Assembly: GCA_029246505.1 (NCBI GenBank)
Contig: JAQWNC010000008.1
Span: forward strand, 1 to 32,277
Source of the DNA: Arenicellaceae bacterium
Lineage (GTDB): Bacteria > Pseudomonadota > Gammaproteobacteria > Arenicellales > Arenicellaceae
Length of the DNA stretch: 32,277 bases
Reading direction: 5' to 3'
Shown: positions 1,893 to 26,755 of the stretch, piece after piece
Layout: every line of letters begins with the position of its first letter
How positions within the stretch are numbered: position 1 is the first letter of the stretch
Program-made: the position numbers and the translations under genes
Notes under the pieces: generated by a model
The model's input: only the letters and a program-made list of their open reading frames with translations
The model's database searches: none
Told to the model about the DNA's origin: nothing

Positions 1893-4151
1893 TTAAAAAC
1901 GAAAGGTATGACCTACTTTCATGGTCGCTGACTGACCGAGCTGGTCGAAACTGTTGCGCTCGTTCTCACGCCAGCCGCCATTATAAATAACGTAAAACTC
2001 TGAACCGGCCCTCGGAATCCATTGCAGCCGGCTGTTAGCTCCGAGTAATTCGGACTGGTTGTCGTATTGGACGGTCGATACCCACGCCCATTCGGGGGTA
2101 ATCGCTATATCTGCGCGTAGCCGGACTAGTTGCGTCGTAAAGTTTCCCTGAGGTAGGTCGATATTGTTGTATTCATACTCCAGCGCACCGGTAAAACGGG
2201 GGCTCGGACGAAAATCCAGTCTGAATTCCGCGGTCTTACGATTTCCGCCAAAGAAACTACCATCCTCGAGAAGAAGCGTGACGCGCAGCGGCCGCTGTCC
2301 GCCTGTATTCAATGTAACTCCGTACCGCTCAAATGAGTAATCGCCAATCGGGATAGTTACACCGTCTGCAATTTTAAACGGCTCTATTAGAACCTCACGT
2401 ATATCGTTATACAACAAGTAGGCCTGATCGCCCCTTTGGTTTTCGATCTTGGCAAACTCCAACTCCAGTTCTTCGGTTTGAACATTACCCTGAGTATCCG
2501 ATATTTGGCTTAACTCGAATGTGTTCTCAAAAGAACGCAACCAACCACCTCGGCCAAAGCGGTATATATGCCCTGCTTCAACCTCAGCTTGCTTAATCCC
2601 AACCCGATTCGCAAAACCCAGTGCTGGAAAGTAGTCTTCACCAAACTTTCCGTACTCCAAAGTGCCATAAAAGCCATTATTATTTGGGGAAGCCAGTAAA
2701 AACCCCCATGCTTCATCATCCCCGCTCAAACCCTCTGTATCAGATTTTTGATACCAGGCTCTCCCTTCAATAGTAATATTTTCGAAGGAGCGATTATTTA
2801 AATAATTAAAGTCCACACCAACCACTTTGTTCTCTTCATCGCGGGTTGGATTACCGTAAGTCACAATTGCACCGATATTAGATTGCTCCAATACGTTTGC
2901 GGAAGCTCGCCCAACGAATAGTTCGCTATCTTCAATAAATCGAGCCCCGGGCGGTAGCTCGTCCAGAATGTCAGAATTTCCTGTCTGCTTCACGGCCAAG
3001 GCACCAATATTCCAACGACCTATCCGTCCAGTAAGTTTGCCACCCGCATCCAGATTTAGATTCTGCCCACCCGGCCCCATTCCAATCCGACGCGAAAAAA
3101 ATGGCTTACCGTTTCGATTCAATCCACCAAACTCAAAGATATCGGCTTCCTGAAGAAAAAACTTCCGTTGCTCCGGAAAAAACAAGCTAAACCGCGTTAA
3201 CTGTACTTGTCGATTATCAACATCTGTCGCAGAAAAATCGGTATTTAAAGTCAAGGCACCCGTTAGGTTCGGCGTAAATTTATAAAACGCATTGAGTGAA
3301 GGCTCTATCTCAGTACTACTTGATTCAGGATCATAGGATCGGCGGTTTGTGACATTTACAGCGGGTATCACGTCAAGACCTATACCTTGCTTCATTCCAG
3401 TCATACCTACCGCAGTACCAAAGTTACTCGGGTTTGTGCTCCGATTAACTGAGGTCCAGCCTACATCCTCACTGTTACTTTCTATTCCACGCTGAAATGA
3501 AATGCCCCACGCATCGGAACTAGGATCAAACGAAATAGTATTGTATGGCACAGCAATTTCGGCAAACCATCCTTCCTCTGTCCGCTCAGCCCCAGAAAAC
3601 CAAATACCGGTCCAATCGCGGTTCAAATCGCTAACGTTTTCAAATATAGCCTCTGAACGAATAGCATTGGCGTTAGTTTGAAAATAGTACCCATTTCGGC
3701 CATCATTAAAAGGATTAATGTAAAGGCCGAACTTGTCATCGAAGCGCAGGCTGCCGCCCTGAATCATAGTTGCTGCAATAATATCTTCCGGGTTCTTATG
3801 AATCATCCGCGCACCCACATAGATAGCACGCTCTCCGTAAAGCACATAGACCACTGTTCTTTCGGAGGGCTCGGTATATTCATTCGGCCGGGTTTGATGA
3901 AAATCTTCGACCACGGCTGCCGTGGACCAAACATCGTCCATAATCCCATCAATGATCGGCGGCGTATCGGTCTTGATCATTTGTATAACCTTATCCCGAC
4001 CCGAGCGATCATCAGGGACTTCCTCTTGGGCGAGAGTCTGCGAGGCCAAAATAAAAATACTTGCGATGGCAGTAGCACACACTCCGGCCTGAAGGGTTTT
4101 TTGTCTATTTAAATAAAGGGGGTTCGATATACTTTTAATTCTACTCTGCAT
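1893..4151 (-). CDS. DUF5916 protein: CBM9-like domain plus outer-membrane beta-barrel
   Basis: 752-residue exported protein. Residues 1-41 form a signal peptide ending near TLA-QEE. Residues 60-250 form a carbohydrate-binding-family-9-like module with the signature IDGIMDDVW (67-75) and repeated Tyr/Trp/Asp strands. The remainder matches the DUF5916 pattern of a large barrel with alternating amphipathic strands, and the chain ends in VGHTFRF, the aromatic C-terminal signature of outer-membrane barrels. DUF5916 proteins are commonly found beside exported hydrolases; their exact function is not established, and ligand binding or transport at the outer membrane is an inference. The ATG overlaps the end of the sulfatase gene by 11 bases and has no clear ribosome binding site, which suggests translational coupling. 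No other start codon lies nearby. Confidence 0.85.
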   Translation of the reverse strand: MQSRIKSISNPLYLNRQKTLQAGVCATAIASIFILASQTLAQEEVPDDRSGRDKVIQMIKTDTPPIIDGIMDDVWSTAAVVEDFHQTRPNEYTEPSERTVVYVLYGERAIYVGARMIHKNPEDIIAATMIQGGSLRFDDKFGLYINPFNDGRNGYYFQTNANAIRSEAIFENVSDLNRDWTGIWFSGAERTEEGWFAEIAVPYNTISFDPSSDAWGISFQRGIESNSEDVGWTSVNRSTNPSNFGTAVGMTGMKQGIGLDVIPAVNVTNRRSYDPESSSTEIEPSLNAFYKFTPNLTGALTLNTDFSATDVDNRQVQLTRFSLFFPEQRKFFLQEADIFEFGGLNRNGKPFFSRRIGMGPGGQNLNLDAGGKLTGRIGRWNIGALAVKQTGNSDILDELPPGARFIEDSELFVGRASANVLEQSNIGAIVTYGNPTRDEENKVVGVDFNYLNNRSFENITIEGRAWYQKSDTEGLSGDDEAWGFLLASPNNNGFYGTLEYGKFGEDYFPALGFANRVGIKQAEVEAGHIYRFGRGGWLRSFENTFELSQISDTQGNVQTEELELEFAKIENQRGDQAYLLYNDIREVLIEPFKIADGVTIPIGDYSFERYGVTLNTGGQRPLRVTLLLEDGSFFGGNRKTAEFRLDFRPSPRFTGALEYEYNNIDLPQGNFTTQLVRLRADIAITPEWAWVSTVQYDNQSELLGANSRLQWIPRAGSEFYVIYNGGWRENERNSFDQLGQSATMKVGHTFRF

Positions 4152-5604
4152 TTCGGCTAGCTGCCGGATCTATGGGTTCATTGTGTTTGGGTAATAGCGC
4201 GACGAGCTCTTGTTTCTTCTCGCCTAGTTTTGGGTCATTAGCCAGATTGTGCCACTCGTTCGGATCCGAATCTAAATCATACAACTCCTCAGTATTATCC
4301 GCGTATCGAATATAACGATATTGATCAGTCGATACCGCGTGATTTCCGAAACCGCTTGTCGTGATAGCTGCATGGTTCCACTCGGTGGCTGGATTCTCAA
4401 TTAGCGGCACCAGACTGACGCCTTCTGGATGAGCAGGCATATCGAGCCCGGCCAGTTCTACCAGGGTCGGATAAATATCCAAAAGCGAGACAGTTGATTC
4501 AATATTGCTAGCGGCTGTTGTAACTCCAGGCGCAACTACAATGAATGGAACGCGAGTGGATTCACGCCAAAGTGTTTGTTTACGCCACCACGATTTTTCG
4601 CCGAGATGCCAGCCGTGGTCCGACCACAAAACAATGATCGTATTATCCGCCCGGCCACTTTGCTCCAGTGCGTCAAGTAGATGGCCCAGCATTGCATCGG
4701 CATAACTGATACTTGCAAGATAAGCTCTAACGGCTTCCCTCCATCGTCCGTTGGTCTTATCTTCGACGATCCAGTCATTAATCCCAAAAGCTGACATCGC
4801 ACCACCCCCGCGACCACGCTGAATGATAGCCTCGGGGATATCATCGAGGTCGTTTTCAAGCACATCGGGAAGTACGATGTCTTCGAGTGGATGCATGTCG
4901 AAATATTTTTGCGGCAAATACCAGGGAAGATGTGGACGATAGATACCGACAGCGTTGAATTTTGGTGCATCGCTATCGGCCAGAATTTGTTCCGCAGACC
5001 AGGTTACTACCTGACCGTCACCCATAGCCATGTCGGTAGTCGACACCGCCGACCAGTCGAAGTTTTGCGAAAGTGGACTACCATTAGCCGGCCGCTCGTG
5101 AGGCGTAGGTTCGTCGGGAAGCTGCCGCTCCAAAGATGGAAAGTAAGCATCCCAGGCGGTTGTATCGTTAAAACCAAAGTAGGCCCAGGTATTGTAGGTC
5201 GAGGCGTGGAAAAGTTTGCCGGCGCCGACACTTCGATAACCATTATCCTTAAAGTGACGTGGAATCGTAGGGACTCCGGCCAAGGGTTTTGCTTTGCGCC
5301 AATCTGTCCCGTTAGCGTAGACCCCCGATGATGAAGGCAAGACTCCGGTCATAACTGCTGCTCGCGATGGGCTACAGAGCGCTGCCGGTGCATAAGCATT
5401 AGTAAAAGTTACCCCTTGAGCCGCCAGACGATCAATATTTGGGGTCTTCGCCTGGGGATGCCCGCCCAGCGGGCCAACCCAGTCGTTCAGATCATCAATG
5501 GCTATAAACAGCACATCGGGCTGATCGGTCGTCTGTGCCTGTACAGAAAAGTGCATTGTTGACAGCAAAGCCAATATGGCAAGGTGAGTAAACAGTCTAG
5601 TCAT
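4141..5604 (-). CDS. Exported sulfatase (iduronate-2-sulfatase-like)
   Basis: Type I sulfatase of the alkaline-phosphatase superfamily. The formylglycine motif CSPSR is complete (Cys90 to Arg94 in the longest reading), with the metal residues AIDD (Asp50, Asp51), GAGKLFH (Lys143, His146), WSDHGWHLGEK (Asp342, His343, Lys350) and the YRPHLPW segment typical of the iduronate-2-sulfatase branch. I place the start at ATG 5604, which gives the signal peptide MTRLFTHLAILALL...VQAQ preceded by GGA 7 bases upstream; an ATG 39 bases earlier (5643) adds 13 residues ahead of it. It would remove sulfate esters from polysaccharide or small sulfated compounds in the periplasm and needs a formylglycine-generating enzyme, not seen here. 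It is first in a two-gene unit with the DUF5916 protein. Confidence 0.88.
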   Translation of the reverse strand: MTRLFTHLAILALLSTMHFSVQAQTTDQPDVLFIAIDDLNDWVGPLGGHPQAKTPNIDRLAAQGVTFTNAYAPAALCSPSRAAVMTGVLPSSSGVYANGTDWRKAKPLAGVPTIPRHFKDNGYRSVGAGKLFHASTYNTWAYFGFNDTTAWDAYFPSLERQLPDEPTPHERPANGSPLSQNFDWSAVSTTDMAMGDGQVVTWSAEQILADSDAPKFNAVGIYRPHLPWYLPQKYFDMHPLEDIVLPDVLENDLDDIPEAIIQRGRGGGAMSAFGINDWIVEDKTNGRWREAVRAYLASISYADAMLGHLLDALEQSGRADNTIIVLWSDHGWHLGEKSWWRKQTLWRESTRVPFIVVAPGVTTAASNIESTVSLLDIYPTLVELAGLDMPAHPEGVSLVPLIENPATEWNHAAITTSGFGNHAVSTDQYRYIRYADNTEELYDLDSDPNEWHNLANDPKLGEKKQELVALLPKHNEPIDPAASRNAE

Positions 5605-5643
5605 AGTAATATCCGTTAAGTTGAGAGTTGCAAGTGCACACAT

Positions 5644-12272: not shown

Positions 12273-12358
12273 AAATTCGTTGGAAAATACATCTGTGAGA
12301 TAAGCTGAATTGGATATAACCGTTTATTTACAAATTGAATATGTATAGGAGAAGAAGG

Positions 12359-13803
12359 TTGATTAGAAGTAGCTTGGTTTTAGCGAGCATGGTTGCACTA
12401 GCCGCCTGCTCAGATTCCACCGAAATAGATCAGGGAGCAGCTGAAATCAGCTCTCCGCGAGAGCTCGTAAGCAAACAACCAAACGTTCTATTTATCCTTG
12501 TGGACGATATGGGTTTTGGCGATGTGGGCTACAACGGTAGCGAAATTGCGACGCCAAATCTGGATCAAATGGCTCTTGACGGCATGCAACTAGACCGTAA
12601 TTACGTTTATTCAGTATGTAGCCCCACAAGAGCTGCTTTACTTTCAGGTCAAAATCCGCTGCATATGGGTATTACCGGGCCTATGGATGATCTCGCCAGT
12701 TTTTGCCAGCAGGCCTAAAGTTAATGCCTGAGTATTTTAAAGAATTGGGCTATCAGACTCATATGATTGGTAAATGGCATTTAGGGCTAACCGAGACCAG
12801 TGCCTGGCCAATAAACAAAGGTTTTGACAGCCACTATGGTTTTCTCGGCGGTTGGATAGATTTTTATACCCATGTTTTTGCCGGAGGATTGGATTGGCAG
12901 CGTGATGGGGTTTCTGTTCGTGAAGAGGGTCATGCGACTGATCTAATGACTGATGAAGCTGTTCGTATTATTGAACAGCGAAACCAGCAGCCATTCTTAA
13001 TGTGGCTTTCGTATAACGCACCACATAGTCCTTTGCAGCATCCGCCAAGTTACTCCGAGCTTAATGATTACCCGGAGATCACTGATCGTAGTGTGTATGC
13101 GGAAATGGTTACGCATGTGGACGGCGGTATTGGTCGAGTAATCGAAAGCCTGAATGACCAGGGTATTCTCGAAGAAACCATAGTGATCTTCTCTAGTGAT
13201 AACGGCGGTGCATTGGGCCTTGGTGCCAGCAACGGCGATTTACGCGGCGAAAAGCGCTTAAGCCTGGAAGGCGGAATGCGCGTTCCCGGTTTGATCAGTT
13301 GGGCTGGAACAATAGAGTCTGGAAGCGTATTGGAGCAACCCATTGCAATACACGATTGGTTGCCAACGCTTTTGGAAGCGGTCGGTGGAGACCCTGAAGC
13401 AGTGGTTGATGCCTATGGTCAGAGCATGTGGCCCGCGATCGCCGGTGGCGTAACCGTGGAGCGAAATACCATAGTTATGGGTGCAACACATAACCTCGGA
13501 GTGTTTGAATGGCCCTTGAAACTTGTCGCCGTCGAAGATGCTGAAAGTGGGGAACAAAGCTATAACTTATATAACGTTGTTAATGACCCTACAGCGCAGC
13601 AGGATTTAGCAACTACAAATCCTGAGGTGATGGATCGCTTGATTGCGGAAATTGAAGCTATGCCAGAGCCGGAAGTAAATCGACTTGAACCTGAATACAA
13701 TAATTCTCCACGCTACTACCCCCCAGAGGTTTCGACCTATGACGCGCGCCTTGTAGAAAGCAAAGAACCTTGGGCTGAAGCTGCAATTAGAGATACTGAC
13801 TAG
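12359..13803 (+). pseudogene. Lipoprotein arylsulfatase gene broken by a -1 frameshift
   Basis: Two frames together encode one arylsulfatase. The first (to TAA 12716-12718) carries a lipobox LAAC, the metal residues LVDDMGFGDVGY and the formylglycine motif CSPTR. The second (from about 12703 to TAG 13801) continues with LMPEYFKELGYQTHMIGKWH, the PHSPL histidine, the SSDNGG metal site and LRGEKRLSLEGGMRVP. The join needs one extra base in the T run 12700-12704: six T would give ASFLPAGLKLMPEY. This is a genuine frameshift, a sequencing error, or polymerase slippage. Start choice: ATG 12341 has no ribosome binding site, while TTG 12359 is preceded by AGGAG at a 7-base distance and yields a compact lipoprotein signal (MIRSSLVLASMVALAAC). 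If intact it would be a periplasmic arylsulfatase B-like enzyme of about 480 residues. Confidence 0.8.
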
Positions 13804-19291: not shown

Positions 19292-19888
19292 ATGAAAACC
19301 CCCAGAATTAAAGGCCTTTCTGCCGACACAGCTACCGGCAGAATCGGTGAAATTTTTGCTGAATCGACCCGCCAATTTGGCACCGTTAGTAATTTTTCTA
19401 TGATTATGGCTCTTGCTCCGGGAGCGCTGGAAGCATGGATGACTGCCAACAAAGGCATTCGCATGCGCTACCTAGACGAGGACCCTGAATTTCTTAAGGT
19501 TGAGCAAGCGGTAATTATTCGAACTTCGAGTCAGAACGATTCAGAATATTGTCTTATCCATAATATCGATCTAGGTGCGGAAGCCGGGCTTACCACTGAA
19601 CAAATAAAAATGATTCAAGCTAGCGATTACCATGCAGCCGACTGCCTGGATGAGCGAACCAAGGCGGCGATAGCATGGGTGGATGCCGTTACCGATATGA
19701 GTGCGAGTGGTAACAACGAGGTATTTGAACGAATTTCGGGGCATTTCAGTGATCAGCAGGTGGTTGAACTTACGGTGCTGTGTTGCATGTGGAATTTCTC
19801 CAATCGATTCACCGATGCGTTCCACATTCCACCCGAACCCGAAGGACAAAGACTTCGATTCCGACCGCTTCCACCTACCGGAGAGTAA
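19292..19888 (+). CDS. Carboxymuconolactone decarboxylase-like (AhpD-fold) protein
   Basis: 198 residues of the CMD/AhpD-like fold. The conserved block KVEQAVIIRTSSQNDSEYCLIHN contains the relay Glu71, the resolving-type Cys87 and His90. The first cysteine of the CxxC redox motif is replaced by Ser84 (SEYC), so an AhpD-type disulfide cannot form. Members of the family act as peroxidase partners, decarboxylases or lactone-related enzymes; with one Cys this one is likelier to bind or transform a substrate than to carry out disulfide exchange. It is the first gene of a co-directional run that continues to 26755, 89 bases before the OsmC-like gene. Confidence 0.82.
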   Translation: MKTPRIKGLSADTATGRIGEIFAESTRQFGTVSNFSMIMALAPGALEAWMTANKGIRMRYLDEDPEFLKVEQAVIIRTSSQNDSEYCLIHNIDLGAEAGLTTEQIKMIQASDYHAADCLDERTKAAIAWVDAVTDMSASGNNEVFERISGHFSDQQVVELTVLCCMWNFSNRFTDAFHIPPEPEGQRLRFRPLPPTGE

Positions 19889-19977: not shown

Positions 19978-20544
19978 ATGTCTGAAACAAATCTTGAATC
20001 TATAAGTGTATGTTTCCCCGAGCTTAAAAAGATCACGCTTGCCCGAGAGGCTCGCTATATAGAAGATCCTGATGCGGCCGCGCCAAAAGGTCCGCAATCT
20101 ACCGTTGAAGTAGCGGTCAAATCGGTTGGTGATCTCAATGAACTCGCCTCTAGCCTTAAATCGGGCCGCAGTTGGGTAATCAGTGAGCCTTCACATGTCG
20201 GAGGTTTAGCCGACGCACCAACACCGTTGGAGTATTTGTTGAGTGGCGCGCTAGGCTGCTTCGCCGCTGTCTTTGCCTTCTACGCCGCCAAGTGGGATGT
20301 TAAGTACGATACCTTTGAAGCCACAGCTGTAGCCGAAATGGACGTAAGAGGGCACATGATGGAAGACGCGCCACCCTCGGGATTCCGACAGGTAACTATC
20401 GACGTAGATATCGGCGTTTCTGAACAACCGGATCAGGAAGCATTAGACCGAGTTCTGCAGGCCACAATGAAAGGTTGCCCGGGTATATCAACGCTTAGAG
20501 AACCCGCTAATCTTGCGGCGAATATGACAGTACGCTCAACCTAA
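19978..20544 (+). CDS. OsmC-like protein
   Basis: 188 residues of the OsmC/Ohr superfamily. The two reactive cysteines are at their family positions: Cys94 in SGALGCFAAVFA and Cys167 in MKGCPGIST. The ADAPTPLEYLLSGALGC stretch is diagnostic. OsmC and Ohr proteins reduce organic or lipid peroxides through this Cys pair; related proteins in catabolic operons may act on other thiol-reactive compounds. There is no signal peptide, so it is cytoplasmic. AGGAG lies 11 bases before the ATG. Its place between an AhpD-fold protein and transporters suggests a thiol-redox step in the same pathway. Confidence 0.88.
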   Translation: MSETNLESISVCFPELKKITLAREARYIEDPDAAAPKGPQSTVEVAVKSVGDLNELASSLKSGRSWVISEPSHVGGLADAPTPLEYLLSGALGCFAAVFAFYAAKWDVKYDTFEATAVAEMDVRGHMMEDAPPSGFRQVTIDVDIGVSEQPDQEALDRVLQATMKGCPGISTLREPANLAANMTVRST

Positions 20545-22937: not shown

Positions 22938-23468
22938 ATTAACTTAGTATTTAAAAGACTGCTTGCAAGCGTCATTTACCTACTCACTATATTGTTATCA
23001 ACGAGCCCGGCTCTGCACGCTGCGGATGAACTTACGCAAGACGAGTTGGTCGCAATGGTCATAGGGTGTGAACGACTTGAACATGACTACGCTATTTACC
23101 GTGATCGAGGCGATGCTGAGGCGTTCGCAAATATCTTTACCGAAGACGGAGAATGGGCAAGATCCAACGGTCGGATTATTAAAGGCCGCCCAGCAATTAT
23201 CGAGTACGTAAATTCTTTGGACCGTAGCGAGCCTGAGGCGCATATGCAGCTAACCGGCACTGTCCAAATTAAACCGGTCGATGCCACTACTGCTAACGGA
23301 GTCAGTTATGCAATTGTACTTGAGGCTCCGATTACTGAAACTGGACTACCAGCAACGAATAACTCCTTTCAGGTCGGTTCTGAGTCACGCTCGGTTTATA
23401 AGTTGACCGACGACGGCTGGAAAATTGCCAAGCGTGAGTACACCACTCTGTTTGTTGATCCAGAGTAG
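22938..23468 (+). CDS. Exported SnoaL-like (NTF2-fold) protein, probable ATT start
   Basis: The conserved part (DYAIYRDRGDAEAFANIFTE, then SNGRIIKGRPAIIEYV) is a SnoaL-like alpha+beta barrel of about 125 residues. Usual start codons would begin at TTG 22992, inside a hydrophobic stretch and without ribosome binding site. Reading upstream in frame gives NLVFKRLLASVIYLLTILLS ending in ALHA, a full signal peptide, and AAGGAG stands 6 bases ahead of ATT at 22938. I therefore choose ATT, giving a 176-residue precursor; CTG 22959 is a weaker alternative. SnoaL-like domains are cyclases, isomerases, hydratases or plain ligand binders; export suggests periplasmic substrate handling. It is a tandem paralogue of the next gene. 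Confidence 0.75.
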   Translation: MNLVFKRLLASVIYLLTILLSTSPALHAADELTQDELVAMVIGCERLEHDYAIYRDRGDAEAFANIFTEDGEWARSNGRIIKGRPAIIEYVNSLDRSEPEAHMQLTGTVQIKPVDATTANGVSYAIVLEAPITETGLPATNNSFQVGSESRSVYKLTDDGWKIAKREYTTLFVDPE

Positions 23469-23477
23469 GAGCGACCG

Positions 23478-23993
23478 ATGAAATTATCTGAATATTTGTT
23501 TCTGGTCGCCAGTTTATTGTTTTCATCAATTGCAACCTCTGCCGATTTAGATGTTAAGGATCGAAATACCATCGAAGTCCTATGTAAGCAGTTGTTAGCA
23601 GACTATGCCATTTATCGAGATCATTTAGATGCTGACGGGTTTGCCAACACATTTAGTCAAGATGGCACTTTGCTTATTGGTACAAACACCTATCACGGTC
23701 GGCAAGAAATTAGAAAGAATATAACTGACCGCCCACATCCCGGTAACGCGCACATGATAATGTTTACCACTACTCAAATCACTCCAATCTCTGCAACTGA
23801 AGCGTCTAGCATAAGCTCTGCTCTGATTTTGAACGGCAATCAGCCAGTAGCAGCCGGTGATAAGCCCATTCAAATGTATGGCATTTCAGTAGCAAATGAA
23901 TATCGTACAAATTTTAAACTAACTGATGGGGGCTGGAAGATTTCGCACCTGGAATTCAGTACAGTTTTCCGAGGACCCGGATATGTACAATAG
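23478..23993 (+). CDS. Exported SnoaL-like (NTF2-fold) protein, second tandem copy
   Basis: 171 residues with signal peptide 1-22 (MKLSEYLFLVASLLFSSIATSA). The mature part repeats the layout of the preceding protein: DYAIYRDHLDADGFANTFSQ, a GRQEIRKNI helix, HMIMFTTTQI and the C-terminal LTDGGWKISHLEF. The two are clearly paralogous but strongly diverged, which suggests separate roles or a heterodimer. AGGAG lies 7 bases before the ATG, and the gene starts 9 bases after its neighbour. Its function is unknown; an NTF2-fold pocket for a small hydrophobic compound is the usual expectation. Confidence 0.83.
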   Translation: MKLSEYLFLVASLLFSSIATSADLDVKDRNTIEVLCKQLLADYAIYRDHLDADGFANTFSQDGTLLIGTNTYHGRQEIRKNITDRPHPGNAHMIMFTTTQITPISATEASSISSALILNGNQPVAAGDKPIQMYGISVANEYRTNFKLTDGGWKISHLEFSTVFRGPGYVQ

Positions 23994-24023
23994 TGCCCGG
24001 CAAGTCGTAATGAGGAGACAGCA

Positions 24024-24797
24024 TTGAGCAACAAAACATCAGTCAATCCTGTTGAGCTGCGAGAACAGATAAAAGACACCTATCGTGAAGTCGCGATCGA
24101 TCCACGTAAGGGCTACCACTTTCATACCGGAAGACCGCTAGCGAAAAAACTTGGCTATGATCAGGCTGCCGTCGATGCCTTACCCGATTCAGCAGTAGAG
24201 TCTTTCGCCGGGGTATCTAACCCTTTTGTGATGCGGGCAATTCAACCAGGTGAAAAAGTCATAGACGCCGGAGCCGGCGCTGGCTTCGATTCCTTTATCG
24301 CTGCCGGCCTGGTTGGAGAACAAGGCCAGGTAGTTGGGGTTGATATGACCGAGCAAATGCTGAGTAAGTCGCGTGAAACTGCCTCCCAAATGGGTGCTGA
24401 AAATATTTCTTTTAAACAAGGCCTTCTCGAAGAATTACCAGTTGATGATGGCTGGGCCGATGTGGTGATAAGCAACGGCGTATTTAATCTTTGTGCAAAC
24501 AAGCAAACAGTATTCAATGAAGCTTACCGTGTGCTTAGGCCCGGCGGAGTTTTACAGTTTGCAGATATTGCCAATGGCAACTCGGTACCGGAGGAAGCCC
24601 GAAATAATATCGACCTCTGGACCGCATGAATTGCCGGTGGCCTGCCGTGTGCAGGCTGGAAAAAACTTCTGACAGATGCCGGGTTTATCAACATTCGTAT
24701 TGGTGATAAGCACGATACTTTCGCAGGCGCTGGCGGAGAAAAGAATGCGCGAGCCTTCGCGGTTTACGGGTACCCATTTTATGCAGAAAAACCCTGA
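24024..24797 (+). CDS. Selenoprotein SAM-dependent methyltransferase (ArsM-like), Sec at in-frame TGA
   Basis: Rossmann-fold methyltransferase. SAM-binding motif I VIDAGAGAGFDSF (79-91), VGVDMTEQML (104-113), NGVFNLCANK (151-160) and EAYRVLRPGG (166-175) resemble arsenite methyltransferases. Translation to the TGA at 24627-24629 gives 201 residues ending in IDLWTA, but the same frame continues IAGGLPCAGWKKLLTDAGF and on for 55 codons to TGA 24795-24797, ending GYPFYAEKP. In related proteins the interrupted position is the Cys of a (W)TGCIAG-type motif, where arsenic-binding Cys is expected, so TGA is read as selenocysteine (Sec202; Cys209 may be a partner). A SECIS-like hairpin follows. TTG start with AGGAG 6 bases upstream. 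A nonsense mutation is the alternative. selA, selB and selC are not in the window and are needed elsewhere. Confidence 0.82.
24639..24657 (+). promoter_or_regulatory. Bacterial SECIS-like hairpin
   Basis: GCCTGC (24640-24645) and GCAGGC (24651-24656) form a perfect 6-bp stem, extended by a G-T pair (24639/24657), with the loop CGTGT (24646-24650). Sixteen bases separate the TGA (24627-24629) from the loop, and a G is the second loop base. The known bacterial SECIS model requires a loop 16-37 bases after the UGA and a G among its first two bases, so both conditions hold. The hairpin lies inside the coding sequence, as SelB-dependent decoding demands. Confidence 0.72.
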
Positions 24798-24886: not shown

Positions 24887-26755
24887 TTGAGAACTATCCC
24901 AGCCCTTATATTGGTGCTCATACCAATTGGCCTATTTATCGTTTCGTCGCAAACCAGCGCCGCACCTCTCGATGAGGTATCTGTTATAGGTACACGGCTC
25001 CCGGGAGTATCCAAAGCAAATGTTCTGTTCATCGAACATGACATAATCCGGTCATATGCTGGAATCTCGACCTTGTCTGCCCTGCAGAACAATCCACTTA
25101 CGTTTACCCAGGCGGGATCAGGACGCGGAACTTACAACAGCCTATATCTAAGAGGTGCCGACCCAAACTATACCCTCATTCAAATTGATGGTTTACCCGT
25201 GAACGATCTAACCGATAATCGCGGTGGCGCTGTAGATATGGGGAATTTCGGGCTGCTTGGGATTGAATCAATAGAAATATTACCCGGGGCTTCATCAGCC
25301 GTTTATGGCTCGCAAGCTCTGGGGGGTGTAATTAATATTAAAACCCTAAACATCGTTGGTACCGAGCTCTACGGTCAGGTTTCTCCAAGTGGTGATGGTT
25401 ACCGTTCTGGGCTGGTGTGGGGGGATGGGCAATGGAATGTGTCTTCACTTTATGAAAGAGACGATAATGAAGCGACAAGGAGCAGCTACACCGGTCGGAG
25501 CCTGGTTGTTAAGCGCTCAACTGAAATCGATTCTTCTCGGCAATTAGATATTCAACTCAGATATTCCGATAGTGACAGTGACGCGTATCCCGATGATAGC
25601 GGAGGTGCCCTATTTGCGGTTTCACCCAAGTTAGAATCGCGAAACTCTGTGCAGAAACAGATTGGTGCTAACTACCGAGCTGAATACGACGGAGGTAGTG
25701 AGTTTTCGTTTAAGACGTCTTACTCGGAAATAGCGCTAAATGTTGATACCCCGGCAGTTTTACCAGGCTTGCGTGATCCATTTGGCCTACCTGCAATCCG
25801 TTCGGATAATCACTACGAAGCGACTATCGTCTCGATGTCCTATCTATCAAAACAGATTCGTAATCTTAGAATATTAGGTGGTGTAAATTACGAACGATCA
25901 AGTGGTGGAAGTAATGGAATAATAGATATCGGATTTGAACTTCCAGCATCTTTTGTTCTAAGACGAGAACAATGGGGTGTATTTACTGAAATGGTTTGGC
26001 GCCCGATAAAACAAATAGCGGTTAGCGGTGGTGGAAGAATTGAAAGGTTTCAGGATAATGAGATTTTTACACCCCTAGTTAACGTGGAATACACATCTCT
26101 AAACGAAAGGCATACGGTAATGCTGAGCTGGGGAGAGGGTTTTAAACTCCCAAGCTTCTATGCACTTGGAAACCCCTTGGTAGGTAACCCTGAATTAGAA
26201 AACGAGAGCTCTAATTCTTTGGAATTCAGATATTCTTTCGAAAGCATGCGTTGGGTGTTGGGCATATCTGTGTTTCGCAATAAATTCAAAAATTTAGTCG
26301 ATTTTGCGGCGGGGCCACCGCCCTCATTAGTCAATCGAGATAAGGTCGAAATCACAGGCGCTGAATTACAAGTTCGTCTAATGCTATCTAGCGCCCTGGA
26401 GCTAACCGCATTTGCGTCCATGCTAGATATAGTAGTTATCAATCAACCCGCTTTAAAATTGAGGGGTAGACCGGAATCGCGAATCGGATTAGGTTTACAG
26501 TGGAAGCCAAATAGTGACTTTCAATTAAACCTTAGAGCACGATATTCAGGAAACATACCCGACTCAAGCGTGCCTACCGGAAACATTCCTATTGAACCTG
26601 CTAACGTACTTGATGCTACCGCGAGCTATGCGTTGACTCCAAGCATCATCGTCAATGGTTCTTTAGAGAACGTATTAGGGGAGGATTACCAAACAAGTAT
26701 TGGTAACTTTGTACAAAAGCCAACAATGTATGTTGGCTTTCGATACAAACTGTAA
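24887..26755 (+). CDS. TonB-dependent outer-membrane receptor (BtuB-like)
   Basis: 622 residues, close to BtuB (614). The signal peptide ends near residue 26 (...SQTSAAP). The plug domain (about 28-155) shows the TonB-box region LDEVSVIGTR, YNSLYLRGADPNYTLIQIDG, VNDLTDNRGG, and the plug end IESIEILPGASSAVYGSQAL. The rest is a 22-stranded barrel with the FKLPSFYALGNPLVGNPELENESS region typical of the late barrel, ending VGFRYKL. It imports a large or rare ligand through TonB energy; cobalamin-type receptors are the nearest look-alikes, but the intergenic 89 bases hold no cobalamin riboswitch. The start is TTG at 24887, the only in-frame candidate after an upstream stop that gives a full signal peptide. 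It closes the plus-strand block, so its ligand may be the pathway's substrate. Confidence 0.87.
   Translation: MRTIPALILVLIPIGLFIVSSQTSAAPLDEVSVIGTRLPGVSKANVLFIEHDIIRSYAGISTLSALQNNPLTFTQAGSGRGTYNSLYLRGADPNYTLIQIDGLPVNDLTDNRGGAVDMGNFGLLGIESIEILPGASSAVYGSQALGGVINIKTLNIVGTELYGQVSPSGDGYRSGLVWGDGQWNVSSLYERDDNEATRSSYTGRSLVVKRSTEIDSSRQLDIQLRYSDSDSDAYPDDSGGALFAVSPKLESRNSVQKQIGANYRAEYDGGSEFSFKTSYSEIALNVDTPAVLPGLRDPFGLPAIRSDNHYEATIVSMSYLSKQIRNLRILGGVNYERSSGGSNGIIDIGFELPASFVLRREQWGVFTEMVWRPIKQIAVSGGGRIERFQDNEIFTPLVNVEYTSLNERHTVMLSWGEGFKLPSFYALGNPLVGNPELENESSNSLEFRYSFESMRWVLGISVFRNKFKNLVDFAAGPPPSLVNRDKVEITGAELQVRLMLSSALELTAFASMLDIVVINQPALKLRGRPESRIGLGLQWKPNSDFQLNLRARYSGNIPDSSVPTGNIPIEPANVLDATASYALTPSIIVNGSLENVLGEDYQTSIGNFVQKPTMYVGFRYKL

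Follow-up and report, generated by a model that had tools for sequence, protein, structure and literature searches.

A methyltransferase gene apparently cut short in an Arenicellaceae genome very probably encodes a complete selenocysteine enzyme

In a 32,277-nucleotide stretch of DNA from an Arenicellaceae bacterium (contig JAQWNC010000008.1; hereafter the window), a gene that appears to be cut short by an in-frame TGA very probably encodes, as judged by comparison with its relatives, a complete selenocysteine (Sec) enzyme. We consider it likely that its product is a 257-residue SAM methyltransferase in which UGA at codon 202 is read as Sec, and that this enzyme works with one chalcogen on an acceptor other than free arsenite. 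Sec202 is supported by a sel gene cluster in the genome, by relatives with TGA or Cys at the same codon, by protein-like evolution of the frame after the TGA, and by a conserved hairpin, and the prediction of a 257-residue selenoprotein made from the letters of the window is supported by comparison. The features are collected in Table 1.

Sec-containing relatives of ArsM are already known. The Global Ocean Sampling survey of 2008 named arsenite S-adenosylmethyltransferase (PRK11873, arsM) among its selenoproteins (PMC2398784); in the part of the survey consulted, which lacks the column heads, the PRK11873 row reads 8, 4 and 245, and we take the 8 to be Sec sequences. By that partial description, those proteins belong to the same broad family as the window protein and were reported with Sec. 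Reviews, likewise consulted in part, also name arsenite methyltransferase selenoproteins (PMC13188914, PMC9312934), and a table in one of them gives the motif UxxG at the Sec (PMC13188914), where the window protein has U-I-A-G. The window protein, very probably a genuine selenoprotein by its sequence, would join this company, and the arsenite label is to be doubted.

Table 1. Features of the methyltransferase locus and its surroundings (window positions)
Feature	Position	Strand	Basis or remark
Peroxidase-related / YciW-like protein	19292..19888	+	Matches weak, all under cut-offs; none to Pfam at 1e-3
OsmC-family protein, about 3.5 kb upstream, not adjacent	19978..20544	+	Domain match; link to the methyltransferase putative
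SnoaL-like protein	22992..23468	+	
SnoaL-like protein, ends 30 bases before the methyltransferase start	23478..23993	+	
SD-like GAGGAG, 6 bases before the TTG start	24012..24017	+	
Predicted Sec-containing ArsM-fold SAM methyltransferase CDS, 257 aa	24024..24797	+	Frame, family and structure matches
Gly63-Val64 codons; Gly-Cys in classical ArsM (CmArsM Cys72)	24210..24215	+	Alignment
Gly152 codon; Cys in classical ArsM (CmArsM Cys174)	24477..24479	+	Alignment
TGA codon, residue 202, predicted Sec, equivalent to CmArsM Cys224	24627..24629	+	Frame and relatives
55-codon C-terminal part after Sec: last helices/strands (209-219, 222-226, 239-244, 247-255)	24630..24794	+	Model and codon comparison
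SECIS-type hairpin: 7-bp stem, loop CGTGT 24646-24650	24639..24657	+	Folding and relatives
TonB-dependent receptor, directly downstream	24887..26755	+	

The reading frame, residue 202 and the selenocysteine machinery

The frame starts with TTG at 24024, where the closest full-length relative (locus L047) has ATG at the equivalent position, and it runs for 55 codons beyond TGA202 to a TGA stop at 24795-24797. The coordinates and peptide readings originally given for this extension are correct, as is the statement that standard calling gives 201 residues, the length of the ORF under translation table 11. Conservation of the extension is protein-like in the three closest relatives. Identity at codon positions 1, 2 and 3 between the window and L047 is 0.67, 0.80 and 0.36 after the TGA, as compared with 0.70, 0.86 and 0.31 before it; for a second relative, L075, the figures are 0.75, 0.82 and 0.36 after the TGA and 0.79, 0.86 and 0.41 before it.

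Scanning the contigs of named genomes yielded 55 related loci, 42 of which reach residue 202 (13 fall short of the site). These were sampled by similarity to the window, and the following proportions are not natural frequencies: 30 loci have TGA at this codon, 10 have Cys (L076-L080 and L082-L086), one has TAA, and one has Asn. Judged by title, the TGA loci belong to Chloroflexi, Desulfobacteraceae and other Deltaproteobacteria, Methylomirabilota, Rokuibacteriota, Actinomycetota, SAR324, and a Rhodobacteraceae MAG. The pairing of Cys and Sec homologues foreseen for position 202 was therefore found, and among loci of at least 43% identity no sense codon other than Cys occurs there; the Asn belongs to L089 only, a distant methyltransferase of 34% identity. 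Locus L081 aligns in two frames, indicating a frameshift, and its site codon is TGA. Separately, L074 has a second in-frame TGA at codon 164; its close relatives carry TGG (Trp) at this codon, and the difference is likely due to a point change or a sequencing error.

The source genome carries selA, selB, tRNA-Sec and selD as one cluster on contig C15, so that all four sel genes expected in the rest of the genome, selC included, are present. The proteins score well over their cut-offs (selA, 554.4 bits against 267.9; selB, 333.1 against 242.25; selD, 360 against 125), and the tRNA-Sec, which lies between selB and selD and has the anticodon TCA, scores 75.8 bits (cut-off 47). General reassignment of TGA was rejected: this tRNA and the sel genes explain the TGA, and the long ORFs of the window are normal under table 11. 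SelB was detected in 4 of 41 genomes (the source and 40 relatives), including both genomes of its own genus in that search. In the 12 genomes containing relatives of the methyltransferase, tRNA-Sec was found in seven; of the remaining five, all drafts, two have SelB over the cut-off, one has sub-cut-off fragments, and two have neither. The genome's formate dehydrogenase alpha was searched for an in-frame stop and has none, and so does not provide a second selenoprotein.

The TAA at the Sec site occurs in L064 (the same gene as L114; codon L064:3574-3576), which keeps six of the seven hairpin pairs and the downstream frame. In its draft genome, neither tRNA-Sec (E<=1e-8) nor SelB (E<=1e-40) was detected, and Sec decoding has probably been lost there; we rejected a UAA-encoded selenocysteine, since neither component was found and loss of the Sec system is the simpler reading. 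This TAA, together with the 201-residue ORF of table 11, is what could be adduced for taking TGA202 as a true stop, in a gene truncated or decaying or misassembled at this codon. We regard that as extremely improbable. We rejected a simple nonsense mutation or an assembly error, since 30 loci from several phyla have TGA at this very codon; the protein-like frame beyond the TGA in the three closest relatives and the sel genes also speak against a true stop, and a 201-residue product would miss the last strands of the fold. Within the order, 109 genomes gave 33 matching places in 28 genomes at E<=1e-20, with an internal stop only in the window's. From this single stop-containing match we infer that the gene was probably acquired laterally.

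The hairpin after the TGA

The stem of the hairpin (24639-24645 paired with 24651-24657) begins 9 bases past the TGA and includes one G-U pair, and its loop starts 16 bases after the TGA with G at loop position 2. The original prediction described a perfect hairpin starting 16 bases after the TGA. The hairpin does exist, with the loop sequence and the G within the first two loop bases as described, but the distance given is that to the loop rather than to the stem, and the G-U pair makes the stem less than perfect. Taken alone, the hairpin of the window shows no stability beyond chance (z -0.35, with 67 of 200 shuffles folding equally well).

Evidence for the hairpin comes from its relatives. 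In 30 distinct sequences with 210 cells in all, 94.8% of the cells pair, as against 25.7-46.7% in slid versions, and RNAalifold recovers the same helix unprompted. On three of five pair measures the relatives outdo every one of 500 shuffles; neither the covariation score nor the number of cells changed on both sides was equalled by any of them. The number of pairs changed on both sides (four of seven, as high in 72 of 500 shuffles) and the number of further pair types (11, as high in 47 of 500) show no excess. All seven pairs are present at the window's offset in 30 of 48 TGA rows versus 0 of 51 Cys rows, and the longest stem located by free search averages 7.56 in the TGA rows versus 4.92 in the Cys rows, 5 of which reach 9 bp (this row comparison counts L113, L114, L116 and L118 alongside L058, L064, L062 and L071, which are the same genes). 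Ten TGA rows of a sister group are without the hairpin at the window's offset and have stems of 7-10 bp a few bases off. By this comparison, relatives keep the hairpin with compensatory changes, just after the UGA as expected of a bacterial SECIS element. That TGA and hairpin go beyond chance follows mainly from the recurrence of the same TGA and following frame in 30 loci, the hairpin with them.

Fold, ancestry and the arsenic-site cysteines

Sequence searches of Pfam and the PDB place the window protein among SAM methyltransferases, next to ArsM. An AlphaFold model of the 257 residues, made with a 32-row alignment, has a mean pLDDT of 93.5 and a pTM of 0.92, and in it the strands and helices after residue 202 complete the fold. 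The best structural match is ArsM 4fr0 (Z 26.9 over 215 residues, 2.2 Å), followed by 6cx6 (26.6) and 5evj (25.6); the next match after these top ArsM entries is another methyltransferase (22.1), and further ArsM/AS3MT structures (Z 20.1-21.1) are mixed with unrelated methyltransferases. In Foldseek, the first 13 rows are all ArsM or AS3MT. The label ArsM-like was therefore apt for fold and ancestry. Canonical ArsM shares the fold and the SAM region with the window protein, at 31% (4fr0) and 34% (5evj) identity in structural alignment, but canonical chains (CmArsM 4fr0, CrArsM 5evj, and human AS3MT 8xt7) have 321-387 residues, whereas the window protein ends at 257.

Among the best 25 of 56 NCBIfam matches, the window protein passes no model; nor do the relatives L047, L051, L062, L066 and L110 (matches to 1e-45). 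Its best match is the arsenite methyltransferase NF008823, at 218 bits (cut-off 263). Because the genome's own classical ArsM also misses this cut-off (168.9 bits), the score does not separate the readings and does not count against arsenite. The methyltransferase part of three fusion families also aligns, over residues of about 6-228: NF041537 (AhpD domain; 217.6 bits, cut-off 510), NF047649 (UXPK-star; 198.5, cut-off 460), and NF041536 (DUF2284; 194.1, cut-off 575), a range of 194-218 bits in which no cut-off is passed. In contrast to these fusions, the 257-residue window protein is unfused, and its match to the profiles ends at profile position 227-229.

The cysteines that bind arsenic in canonical ArsM are mostly missing. 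In a phmmer alignment, Cys72 and Cys174 of CmArsM correspond to Val64 and Gly152 of the window protein, and Cys224 corresponds to Sec202; the first Cys of the window protein is residue 157, and there is none near CmArsM position 44. According to the part consulted of a survey of ArsM evolution, at least three of the four cysteines 44, 72, 174 and 224 were required (PMC5552862); the window protein keeps 224 alone, as Sec. In the consulted part of a study of human AS3MT, As(III) is bound by three cysteines, MMA by two, and DMA by one, and the CmArsM variants C174A and C224A are each inactive on iAs and MMA (PMC3877260).

A whole group shares these losses. In an 89-row tree, for which the program warned of long branches, a 49-row group with support of 100/95 lacks Cys at 64 and 152 throughout (49 of 49). 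It comprises 5 Cys rows and 44 of Sec type, among which the TAA row is counted. All but one of the other 40 rows have all three cysteines, the exception being L120, without Cys at 152. The tree and tally leave out L114, L113, L116 and L118 (the same genes as L064, L058, L062 and L071), L044 (short of residue 202), and L075, L081, L086, L087 and L089-L101, which were read apart, as were the haloarchaeal loci L145-L149. L086, a Cys row, has Cys at 152, and in its Cys-72 region the alignment is out of register. The group's pattern at the three positions recurs in a sister group of Sec proteins, which come from relatives of the L064 genome; one of them, L127, has a Cys two residues from 64. Sister-group Sec methyltransferases L127-L137 have the motifs FPxG or YPxG, VNGxFNL or SNG, and mostly UIAGA. 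Single rows (L058, L127 and L145) have stray cysteines close to the lost positions. Cys157 and Cys209 of the window protein could in principle replace a lost thiol; few rows share them.

The losses extend to haloarchaea. A haloarchaeal "methyltransferase domain-containing protein" encoded beside OsmC (Haloarcula JP-L23 plasmid, L110) falls in the same tree group (L109 and L110) with the same losses at 64 and 152, and at 64, 152 and 202 each of the seven haloarchaeal relatives fetched carries Val, Gly and Cys, respectively. These have Cys where the window protein has Sec, at 42-45% identity to it. They are seven of ten haloarchaeal rows in a list of 15 from 127 plasmid records; the three left out were H2, which has no annotation, and H11 and H15, both annotated as arsenite methyltransferase (37-38% identity).

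These comparisons bear on whether the window protein could be a true arsenite methyltransferase after all, a more reactive Sec offsetting the lost cysteines and small thiols of the glutathione type completing As coordination. The ArsM fold, the Sec at the Cys224 position and the classing of such Sec proteins as arsenite methyltransferases in the consulted parts of the survey and reviews all agree with that idea, and the window protein scores higher on NF008823 than the classical ArsM does. We nevertheless think it decidedly unlikely. The equivalents of Cys72 and Cys174 are absent, leaving the protein below the published minimum of three of the four cysteines (PMC5552862, seen in part), and Sec alone does not explain this, because the seven haloarchaeal members with a plain Cys202 share the loss. 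In addition, contig C8 of the source genome (L150:1815-3863) encodes a distinct ArsM that has the classical cysteine motifs and, next after it, ArsS, an arsenosugar radical SAM protein (458.8 bits, cut-off 300). Given the missing ArsM thiols and this separate pair, arsenite is doubtful as a substrate of the window enzyme on sequence grounds, and action of Sec202 on it is not supported. We thus favor a one-chalcogen methyltransferase for another acceptor.

Neighborhood and proposed role

OsmC is the commonest Pfam domain in the neighborhood of the family, accounting for 7 of 143 neighbor ORFs of 30 Sec loci, in a set biased toward OsmC: a known OsmC frame was swapped in at L060, L067, L072 and L073 or added at L055, another L067 frame was swapped in, and L067 and L070 each lost one more pick. 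In 23 of the 30 Sec loci, the flanks examined contain no OsmC. An earlier clustering found the same 7 OsmC loci, of 32, four of them from one Chloroflexi lineage. Of the seven haloarchaeal loci fetched, six have OsmC directly upstream; CMD replaces it in one locus and precedes it in another. The 25 commonest of 176 neighbor families include no arsenic family. The consulted parts of the selenoprotein surveys and reviews searched make no mention of the methyltransferase–OsmC gene pair.

In the closest full-length relative, the gene order (L047:1-4162) is the end of selA, the Sec methyltransferase, selD, and a selU-like gene. This order would tie the methyltransferase to selenium biology; it does not give the substrate. 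The SelD of this locus itself has an in-frame TGA in its HGGGxGCK motif. Elsewhere in the window, ORFs at 4141-5643 and 12335-13803 look sulfatase-like by eye, the latter consisting of two overlapping frames (12335-12718 and 12703-13803), possibly through a frameshift.

The favored mechanism begins with SelA, SelB, tRNA-Sec and SelD of the genome, which would decode UGA202 as Sec under the direction of the downstream hairpin. The Sec would then sit at the place of CmArsM Cys224, with the other thiols of the arsenic site absent. There the selenolate, or the thiolate in Cys members, may hold or activate a soft acceptor beside SAM. A SAM methyltransferase requires a nucleophilic methyl acceptor, and the "soft electrophile" of the original prediction was loose chemistry. 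Instead of free arsenite, candidate acceptors are metalloid or chalcogen species that are bound by a single thiol or carry methyl groups already; those needing one ligand could include DMA(III), thiol-bound Se or Te, or a thiol or selenol metabolite. The OsmC/CMD proteins beside some relatives might, more speculatively, supply or recycle the redox state of the enzyme.

The main alternative, which overlaps with this mechanism, is that Sec202 is mainly redox-active, with selenenylsulfide or peroxide chemistry, a thiol or selenol acceptor, and OsmC/CMD partners. The prominence of OsmC among the neighbors, in haloarchaea too, would fit, as would the methyltransferase/AhpD fusion selenoprotein in NCBIfam. 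No conserved resolving cysteine was found among the aligned relatives, however, and the many Sec loci with OsmC-free flanks also weigh against it; we judge a mainly redox role unlikely. More broadly, and tentatively, we suggest that the methyltransferase acting through one chalcogen represents a distinct class. This class, with Sec or Cys and OsmC/CMD partners, would span bacteria and haloarchaea and be widely misnamed arsenite methyltransferase, its substrate being not inorganic arsenite but, for example, DMA(III), a thiol metabolite or a Se/Te species; we hold this to be possible but somewhat less than an even chance.

For the gene itself, the comparison suggests that the 201-residue table 11 fragment, without its key residue, is wrong, and that the name arsenite methyltransferase is doubtful. 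Should the group act on another soft element, a thiol or a selenol, it would take Sec chemistry beyond its usual redox roles. If that is true, surveys of the arsenic cycle that count such genes as arsM would need correction.
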